Positions 56,001 to 61,553 of a stretch of 64,000 bases of DNA are shown here, piece after piece. Each line of letters opens with the position of its first letter. Positions within the stretch are counted from its first letter, which is position 1. Location: positions 17,762,899-17,826,898 of the forward strand of contig NC_084678.1 of assembly GCF_028389875.1 (NCBI RefSeq). The letters run 5' to 3'. This DNA is from Rhea pennata (Eukaryota; Chordata; Aves; Rheiformes; Rheidae). The notes under the pieces were generated by a model. That model saw only the letters and a list, made by a program, of their open reading frames with translations, was not told the DNA's origin and did no database searches. The translations under genes and the position numbers were made by a program.

Positions 56001-59000
56001 CGCAGTGGGTCCTGACGCCACGTTGTCTTCCTCCATTGCAGAAGGAACTGGGAGGCTGTTCTTTGAATTTTATCATCTCCTGAACTACGCTCGTCCCAAG
56101 GCGGGAGAGGAACGCCCCTTCTTCTGGATGTTTGAGAACGTAGTGGCCATGAGAGTCAATGACAAGAGGGACATTTCTCGGTTTTTGGAGGTAGGAATAG
56201 CTGTGGGAAAAGACCTAGGAGCAATCTGGTTGGGCAGTGAGGGCATGGCCTGGGTTTTATATGGCCCCAGTGCTGGAAAACGCCCTGCCTGATGCACTCA
56301 TGAGGAAGCAGTTTTTTGATCTCACCTCTGCTGCAGAATCCCTGCTGACCTTCAGCAGGTTAGCTCCTGATCCCTGGTTCTCCAGGGTAGAATTACTTCC
56401 AGCCTTGCAGAAAGCTTCTGTTCTTCAGAGCAAATGCTCTGTTATTTCCAAGGAGAGGGCGGTAAGGGACCGGAAAGCAATTTTAATTCTGTGGTAACCA
56501 AGACAAAACTCTGATTTAAGCAGTAAAACCCACTGCAGCTTTCTGGTCTGTGCTGTAAGAGTCTCCCGTGAGGTGAACAGTTCTGACTGAGGCCTGGAGA
56601 AACCAGCCCTGAAATGTGCTGTGCTTTTCATTACCTGCTGGTCATGGCTATTGCCTGGGAGCCCATGTAACGGGTCAGGCTGCATTCTGGGGATGTAGAA
56701 CAAGGGGTCGTTCAGGCTAAATCATTAGGAAGGATTTGTTGAGGTGTTCTAAATTCTCTGCAGTGCAGCAGAGAATGTCCTTCCCTGCTGGGCAGGGCTG
56801 AGCCCCCCGGCTGCCTCCTTCCCGGCACCACTGCGGGGCTCTGGGGCAGCAGGGAGGTCAGCTGGGACCCTGCTGCCCCTGCAAGGGTGCATGCTTGAGG
56901 TCCCGCTCATCTGCACAAGGAAGGTCTCAGCAAAAGACTTGTCTTGCACCAACTGTCCTAATTACTATTTTTTTCTTTCTCTCTTGGACTGCAGTGTAAC
57001 CCAGTTATGATTGATGCTATCAAGATATCAGCTGCCCACAGAGCACGCTATTTCTGGGGCAACCTACCAGGGATGAACAGGTAATCTGCTGCTGTGGTTT
57101 TACTTTGTTTTGAGGAGGTTATGCAGTTATTTCCTCCTTGGCCCTAAGCACAGCACCTGAGAGCCAACGAACTGCAGTTGCCTCATGGTGTGATTTCCCT
57201 GTGATGATGTTTTGATGCTAATACACTTACTAATTAGCAATGAGGAGAATCTGGAAAAAAAGTAGATGAGCTCCCTGCCTCCAGACCTGAAGTTTGTAGA
57301 GTGAAGTAATTGGACTTGCCCAGGTTGCTTTGCAGCGCATCTGGCACAGCTCTCTGTGAGAGCCGACCTGTGTGCAAGCAGCACTCGGCCTCCCCAGCAA
57401 GTGCTTCTCTTGGGCAGCACTACCCCAGAGAGCAGAGGTTCCCGGCTGTGCCGTGCCTGGAGATGCACGTGTGCCCTGGACTTTGCCTAAGAGGCAGATG
57501 CTTGGCCAAAGGCCATGTGCACAGGGTGCTGTATGGCAGCACCGTGCCTCTGGCTCAGGTGGTGAATAGGTTTGCCTGGGATGAATCTGAATGACCTCCT
57601 GGAGCTGGTGCCCTGCCTCCAGTAAGGAGGCTGGGACTGGAGCAGAGGCTCCTGCTAGGCCGTGCATTCCTCCAAACTTTGTCCACACCTTGCTTTGAAT
57701 GCACAGCAAAACACAACAGAAGGGCTTGGAGTAAAGTAAAATTAGATGACTAGCAGTCCTGCACAAAAAACATGCTTGCAGTGAAAGATGAAATTTTCAC
57801 ACAGCTAAAGCTTCAGCTGATAAATGCAGACTTGTTTTAAAAATTTTTGCTTGTTTATGCTTAAGTTGCCAGTATTTTTTAAGAGCTAAAACTAATTAAA
57901 GCTGAGCCAGAGGCATCAAGTGCTTGAAAGTTAAAATAGCAATTACTGTCACATCATGCCGTTTGAAATGGCACTTGCACTTGCATCCAATTGTAACTGG
58001 GCGGGAGAAGCAAGGTGCGATGACTCAGAGGGCTCTGCATAAAATGCCTGGGGCAACGCTTACCGAGGTGCCTTTGTCCCACTTTTAGCAGAGCGAGGCG
58101 GGGAGGGTTGATGCCAGGTGCAGGGCACCTCTGAAAGCAGTGCCACGAAAGCTGTTGAGGGCACTGATGCGCATCCGCATTCGGAATATGCCTCTGTGAA
58201 GAATGGCTAATTAATGAGGCCAGCTATGCTATTCTATTAATAGACGTATGTTGAATAGTGGTGAAATTGTCAGGGATTTAGGGGAGCTGTAGCCAAAGGT
58301 TTGGGATTGAGGAGGAGAAGAAGAAGTGATAGTGGATCCATTTTGTGGATGCAGAGTGGTTCGCGGTGGTGCTTGTATCATGGGGCTGTGGTGGGAGGCT
58401 GGTGCAGTGCCCAGCGCGATGCCTGTCCAACCTTGTGGGCTGTATCGCAGCCAGTGAATGGGGCATGCGCATGCCTTTGTCGCCAAGTGGGTAAGAGCCC
58501 AACATGATCTCCTGGGATCATGTTCCCATCTTTGTGGATAGAGATGGATGTCAGAGCTCCAGCACTTTGTGGTGTTTCCTCCCAAAATGCTGTGCCCCCC
58601 GCAAGGCAGAACCTCCTGCCAGAGATGCTGTCCAGGGATCCCACCAGTGACTCTGCCACTTCCAGGACCAAGCATTTCCTTATGGTCCCACGCTTTCCCT
58701 GACCTTGCTCCCAAGAGACCTTCTTTGAGCCCTGGGCTTGATCTGATGAGATAGCTGGTGCTTGGGTTTCCATCTTATGTTTTGTGGGACAGTTGCATTT
58801 ATGTATGTTGATCCTGAAGAGCAGCAAAGGCCACAAGCCAAGTGTTGGTGGAGAGAGCCTGGCATTTTGGGAGAGGCATGCTCATAGTAAAAGCCTTGCT
58901 GGAGAGCACAATCCCTGTTACATTTTTCCTTCTCCTCAGTGTCCTCAGACTGTCCCTTCAGTAAACATAACTTGCAAGATGCATTTAATCATGTCAGTCT

Positions 59001-61553: not shown

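Follow-up and report, generated by a model that had tools for sequence, protein, structure and literature searches.

The DNMT3B Gene in the Rhea Window

Does the DNMT3B gene of Rhea pennata still encode a target recognition domain (TRD), and, if it does not, what can its product do? The question comes from a sequence-only reading of the window, i.e., the whole stretch of 64,000 nucleotides analysed here, which had claimed that the gene lacks the TRD exons and can encode only a form like human DNMT3B3. A 15-exon spliced model with AG/GT borders (46896-61553) yielded 616 residues that are 100% identical over their full length to Rhea pennata DNMT3B (P0121, 786 residues), and tblastn placed the N-terminus of P0121 on additional exons in the window from 39291 on (Table 1). 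Pfam analysis of P0121 found the PWWP domain, both pieces of the ADD and the methylase domain. The PWWP, the DNMT3-type ADD and the C5-methyltransferase identify the gene as a DNMT3B ortholog, and the gene-named rows among the matches listed are DNMT3B. The AlphaFold model of P0121 had a mean pLDDT of 37 and was set aside.

Outside DNMT3B, 10 of 91 long open reading frames were tested for neighbouring genes with 0 Pfam matches, and these ten look GC-driven. The GC content is 0.84 at 4001-6000 and 0.77 at 30001-32000, with long open frames in several reading frames; GC-rich arrays with units of 28-118 bases lie at 4741-5836, and at 14437-15076 a 29-base unit is repeated in tandem about 22 times.

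Table 1. Features of the DNMT3B gene in the window (positions counted from the first letter of the window).
Feature	Position	Strand	Basis
First annotated coding exon (MSVVRSLERLEQ...)	39291..39395, end approximate	+	tblastn with the P0121 N-terminus
N-terminal exon	43886..44030, borders approximate	+	
N-terminal exon	45301..45407, borders approximate	+	
N-terminal exon	46317..46469, borders approximate	+	
Exon 5′ of PWWP (CSKRRTAV...ASEYQ)	46896..47087	+	AG/GT borders, reading frame
PWWP region, exons 48708-48866 and 50473-50580	48708..50580	+	Pfam PWWP on P0121
ADD zinc-finger region, exons 53544-53623, 53831-53943 and 54179-54362	53544..54362	+	
Methyltransferase exon carrying motif I	54632..54716	+	
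Catalytic-loop exon; catalytic Cys kept in rhea	55551..55641	+	
Exon with FF-interface helix and ENV motif	56042..56190	+	
Final exon ahead of the missing TRD (CNPVMID...PGMN), phase-2 exit	56995..57080	+	
Candidate remnant of first TRD exon, weak, not claimed	57570..57640, core 57590-57622	+	profile
Relic (pseudo-exon) of second TRD exon	59338..59450, core similarity 59342-59445	+	frameshift-tolerant alignment, profile, traceback
Terminal coding exon (IFGFP...DYFACE, stop), phase-2 entry	61412..61553	+	

The PGMN Exon Is Followed Directly by the Terminal Exon

The 3′ end of the exon at 56995-57080 reads CCAGGGATGAACAG|gtaatc, i.e., PGMN plus two bases, leaving in phase 2, and the 5′ end of the terminal exon at 61412-61553 reads cccgcag|GATCTTCGGC. 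A direct splice from 57080 to 61412 gives PGMNR|IFGFP and stays open through to the stop codon; the intron between the two exons (57081-61411) is 4,331 bp long, and there is no N in the whole window. The splice borders thus match the phase-2 exit, the phase-2 entry and the intron coordinates that the sequence-only reading had given. The TRD block that would separate PGMN from IFGFP in an active DNMT3B measures 63 residues in nearly all TRD-bearing rows, and in rhea only a relic of it is present. Searching the whole window by tblastn with human DNMT3B and DNMT3A TRD peptides revealed no intact TRD exon (best E 0.24 for the whole TRD and 0.19 for half of it), while four exons of the same gene used as controls gave E values of 5e-15 to 1.5e-29. 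No TRD exon was found on the opposite strand or elsewhere either, by tblastn over the whole window and by a profile run over positions 1-62786 in 28 overlapping chunks per strand. With the intron alone as the target, tblastn gave a best E of 0.015 at 59342-59380, the site of the second-TRD-exon relic, and no intact exon. The claim that the 4.3-kb intron holds no intact exon for the 63 residues was therefore borne out, but the intron is not empty, since a broken relic of the second TRD exon is still present in it.

A Relic of the Second TRD Exon Remains in the Intron

Aligned to the intron with frameshifts allowed, the TRD exons of turtle, alligator and human pointed to a single strong site, on the plus strand. 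The turtle second TRD exon scored 84 there, in comparison to a mean of 33.5 (sd 3.9, maximum 52) in 300 dinucleotide shuffles of the intron, a maximum of 50 for 500 shuffled turtle queries and a score of 32 on the reverse strand of the intron; the alligator and human second exons scored 76 and 63, respectively. A profile of 50 distinct TRDs scored 66.3 at the relic, and none of 500 shuffles exceeded 45.6; the next-best site for this profile on both strands of 1-62786 reached 35.6. In the traceback over 59342-59445, 20 of 36 aligned residues were identical to turtle DNMT3B, with frame breaks and the loss of two residues. The relic has splice-like borders (AG at 59336-59337 and GT at 59451-59452) near the exon borders predicted by residue alignment; the TRD exons are those that we take to be human exons 21 and 22, with the human exon lengths. 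The stretch between these borders is 113 bases, which is not a multiple of three, and joining it to the preceding exon (56995-57080) gives a stop at the second codon. Because a broken relic flanked by AG and GT lies in the expected intron, the second TRD exon was once present at this locus and has decayed in place. An origin of the relic as a DNMT3A copy is less likely, given that the DNMT3A version scored 57 vs. 84 for turtle DNMT3B.

For the first TRD exon no significant relic was found with single queries on the intron or with the profile over 1-62786. The weak candidate at 57590-57622 had a profile score of 32.0, a value that 16 of 500 shuffles attained (for its upstream part, 10 of 500 did) and that another site in the window surpassed (34.1). 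In single-query tests, 7, 195 and 236 of 300 shuffles reached the candidate's score with the human, turtle and alligator queries, respectively.

The TRD-Less Junction Extends Across the Birds Examined

A full-protein search scored 7,995 candidates, of which 1,835 were above threshold and 120 were listed, namely 109 bird rows, 10 turtle rows and one other (P0214), which was left out. The bird set consisted of these 109 rows and five rows from a further search, together 96 species, spanning rhea, kiwi, cassowary, two tinamous, ducks, two landfowl and many Neoaves; the landfowl were represented by Coturnix (P0001) and Centrocercus (P0209, 851 residues). Bird rows P0028 and P0047, both ending at the junction, were left out. 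The results showed the TRD-less junction in 114 of 114 informative bird DNMT3B rows among the matches listed, covering all 96 species, so that the comparison across birds suggested by the sequence-only reading extended the loss beyond rhea. When a turtle TRD alone served as the query, no bird TRD appeared among the 120 listed of 130 matches; the ten further matches are weaker, and a far-diverged bird TRD would escape a search of this kind, which depends on shared five-residue words. The TRD-only matches listed came from turtles, squamates, monotremes, other mammals, one fish and two crocodilians (Crocodylus porosus and Alligator sinensis). Two bird DNMT3A proteins (P0070 and P0071) have the full TRD and motifs.

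TRD-less forms were also present in nine of the ten turtle rows among the full-protein matches listed and in rows of platypus, snake, Anolis, human and fish, and exon skipping is therefore an old splice choice; the sequences suggest that it may be very old among vertebrates. Placed on the phylogeny of birds, the simplest history seems to be a loss of the TRD after the split from crocodilians and before the last common ancestor of living birds. The TRD-less fish rows and a TRD-less lamprey DNMT3 row are found among P0019-P0024, P0044, P0059, P0063 and P0085.

Catalytic Residues Change in Birds While the FF Interface Is Kept

Residues were compared with one row per species, 96 birds vs. 48 non-bird species hand-picked from a larger set, the latter including four TRD-less isoforms (Mauremys reevesii, Emydura, Pangshura and platypus). 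The numbering is that of human DNMT3A, anchored on the catalytic Cys710, with F732, Y735 and F772 taken to be the phenylalanine (FF) interface; R740 and R743 of DNMT3B3 map to 882 and 885 by alignment. The sequence-only reading had described the catalytic Cys, ENV and AdoMet motifs as conserved. This holds in rhea, where these motifs and all nine key residues are intact, but not across birds, since at least one of the nine is changed in 26 of 96 bird species vs. 0 of 48 non-birds. Cys710 is changed or missing in 5/96 birds (Ser in four, missing in one), the motif I Asp641 is changed in 9/96 and Asn711 in 10/96 (missing in one), with 0/48 for each in the other species. A protein tree computed from this alignment, with these sites included, implies five changes for Cys710, six for Asp641 and five for Asn711. 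Since part of the bird rows are incomplete or were predicted automatically, single changes may be errors, an explanation that is unlikely for changes common to parrots or songbirds. The changes at catalytic residues across birds strengthen the reading of bird DNMT3B as an accessory protein.

All six named parrot rows (P0181, P0215, P0188, P0190, P0208 and P0234; five species) read FAG for FDG in motif I, which probably reflects a single loss, within parrots, of what is likely the AdoMet-site aspartate. The songbird rows P0224, P0226, P0227, P0238 and P0004 share PCN to PCD, FDGIATG to FDGVTTG and R891G, the last of which is close to the last AdoMet motif. The tinamou Eudromia elegans (P0225) has FHG in motif I together with changes of the catalytic Cys and Asn (SPSSD), and its catalytic centre is among the most degenerate observed.

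The site comparison used 142 sites that are invariant outside birds and match DNMT3A. In birds, 11 of 14 such sites in the catalytic loop (707-721) were variable vs. 45 of 128 other sites (Mann-Whitney p 0.002, in a test that treats sites as independent and ignores species relatedness). Counted as changed species per site, the loop averaged 6.00 and thus did not exceed the mean of 6.17 for the remaining sites, some of which have changed in nearly all birds; only the share of variable sites sets the loop apart. FF segments were variable at one of 12 sites (p 0.015 for fewer), AdoMet-pocket sites were no more variable than the rest (6/13, p 0.41) and the acidic-patch helix was no more conserved than the rest (3/5 variable, p 0.86). 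F732, Y735 and F772 were unchanged in 96/96 birds and 48/48 others; R882 was kept in 94/96 birds and R885 in 96/96, which preserves the acidic-patch anchor at the level of residues. Non-birds keep the residues of the FF interface and the acidic-patch anchor just as strictly, so that their conservation is permissive and not diagnostic. The mean pairwise identity of the core without the TRD was 0.951 for the 96 birds; 23 placentals gave 0.955 and 11 squamates 0.937. For the catalytic loop the corresponding values were 0.891, 1.000 and 0.977, and for the FF segments 0.992, 0.932 and 0.990, i.e., the bird FF identity is above that of placentals and similar to that of squamates.

A Proposed Role as a Partner of DNMT3A

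The human DNMT3A2-DNMT3B3 complex on the nucleosome indicates how a TRD-less form can work, in that the inactive DNMT3B3 anchors to the acidic patch via R740 and R743 and positions the active DNMT3A2 on linker DNA (PMC7846833). In the available text of a further study, DNMT3B3 and DNMT3L restored methylation only when DNMT3A was present (PMC6409524), and another covers, in its accessible part, the FF interface and what the TRD contributes to DNA contact (PMC13109025). We propose that both TRD exons disappeared from the bird stem lineage by decay in place, and that the ancestral TRD-less isoform was probably fixed in birds after the optional exons decayed. From the sequences and the analogy with DNMT3B3, we infer that bird DNMT3B is inactive and a constitutive partner of DNMT3A. 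By itself it would be unable to methylate DNA; as the outer subunit of a heterotetramer with DNMT3A, joined via the FF interface, it would recruit DNMT3A to chromatin by means of its PWWP and ADD, and its two arginines may contact the acidic patch of the nucleosome. Active de novo methylation in birds would then fall to DNMT3A alone. The product of the rhea gene is probably only a helper for DNMT3A. We consider it very likely that both TRD exons were lost in stem birds, that DNMT3B is now an accessory of DNMT3A and that no active de novo enzyme other than DNMT3A is left. The class-wide form of the proposal, with DNMT3B no longer an enzyme but a DNMT3L-like subunit, DNMT3A as the sole de novo enzyme and a catalytic centre lost repeatedly, is quite likely. 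The earlier claim that this lineage can encode only a DNMT3B3-type form is supported at the sequence level and holds in the 96 bird species examined.

Other explanations have to be weighed against this proposal. GC-rich stretches in bird genomes assemble poorly, and the TRD exons might exist in the animal and have been dropped or collapsed in the assembly or its annotation. It is scarcely credible that such an artefact explains the data: the window without N and the broken relic in the expected intron make an assembly gap unlikely, and the informative rows of the 96 bird species agree throughout, with no bird among the 120 listed TRD matches. A gene that lost its TRD might alternatively be a functionless pseudogene in progress with constraint relaxed throughout, as the repeated changes at catalytic residues would allow. 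This is very improbable, since the core identity of birds, similar to the value for placental DNMT3B, is hard to reconcile with a gene in decay, as are the FF segments, and knock-down in chicken alters methylation, as far as the available text of PMC7275052 goes.

An enzyme that reads DNA through other surfaces, at least where the catalytic loop is intact, is improbable as well, even though rhea and 69 other birds (70/96) keep all nine key residues, so that some activity may persist in rhea. In chicken limb cells, according to the accessible part of the report, Dnmt3b overexpression raised and knock-down lowered global methylation, which its authors read as DNMT3B methylating its targets (PMC7275052). 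The result fits an accessory role equally well. Against activity stand the changed or missing catalytic Cys and the changed motif I Asp in several bird species, and the human TRD-less isoform, which in the available text of PMC6409524 is inactive and dependent on DNMT3A.

Significance of the Loss

Inactive DNMT3 partners are already known. No earlier report of the TRD loss in birds was recognised in the open-access literature; a 2006 paper by Yokomine and colleagues on DNMT3 evolution may contain an earlier mention. A gene restricted to a DNMT3B3-type product across a vertebrate class, with the exon fossil still visible, was likewise not found in the open-access literature. Three reports, in their accessible parts, treat chicken DNMT3B as an enzyme with de novo methyltransferase activity (PMC3086922, PMC7966644, PMC7275052), and the first of them gives it 851 residues, the length also of Centrocercus P0209, and a conserved methylase domain, with no mention of the TRD in the accessible text. 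If the TRD is missing in all birds, the chicken DNMT3B results need a new reading. If the proposal is true, a whole class runs de novo methylation with one active enzyme and a built-in inactive partner, and an alternatively spliced isoform has become the sole product of its gene. It would also bear on how birds live without DNMT3L, and offer a natural experiment on an inactive DNMT3 partner, in which the partner interface must stay and the catalytic loop may go.

Comparison With Known DNMT3 Proteins

The DNMT3B of turtles, crocodilians, squamates and mammals is the same gene by sequence, and turtle DNMT3B (P0232) has the PWWP-ADD-methyltransferase layout seen in rhea. Unlike birds, these groups keep an intact TRD coding sequence, and the nine key residues are unchanged in 48/48 non-bird species. 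DNMT3L would share with bird DNMT3B, by analogy, the role of an inactive DNMT3A partner, and it also has no TRD sequence, according to the available text of PMC13109025. It is nevertheless a different gene: DNMT3L is defined, in the accessible portion of PMC7814119, by an absent PWWP and an incomplete catalytic part, whereas P0121 has a PWWP and, in rhea, intact catalytic motifs. The absence of DNMT3L from birds, which the sequence-only reading had mentioned, is in print, in an analysis of 421 annotated genomes whose available text also reports it for monotremes (PMC7814119). Monotremes keep a TRD-bearing DNMT3B (P0252 and P0253), and the loss of DNMT3L alone therefore does not cause the loss of the TRD.

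The closest counterpart is human DNMT3B3 (isoform 3; PDB 6pa7 and 9e00), in which the domain order and the junction PGMNR|IFGFP are identical to those of rhea, with the remaining methyltransferase domain kept. The C-terminal 358 residues of rhea align without a gap to the isoform 3 chains 6pa7_N and 9e00_V, confirming that the PGMN/IFGFP junction is that of DNMT3B3, and the query shares 86% identity with P0007, a TRD-less row of human DNMT3B. The acidic-patch arginines R740 and R743 are present in rhea DNMT3B as well. DNMT3B3 is one form of a gene that encodes the TRD; in rhea no intact TRD exon was found and the second is a relic, frame-broken and with a stop in the spliced frame, so that the TRD-less form is not one splice isoform among others. 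In several bird lineages, unlike in human DNMT3B3, catalytic residues are altered.
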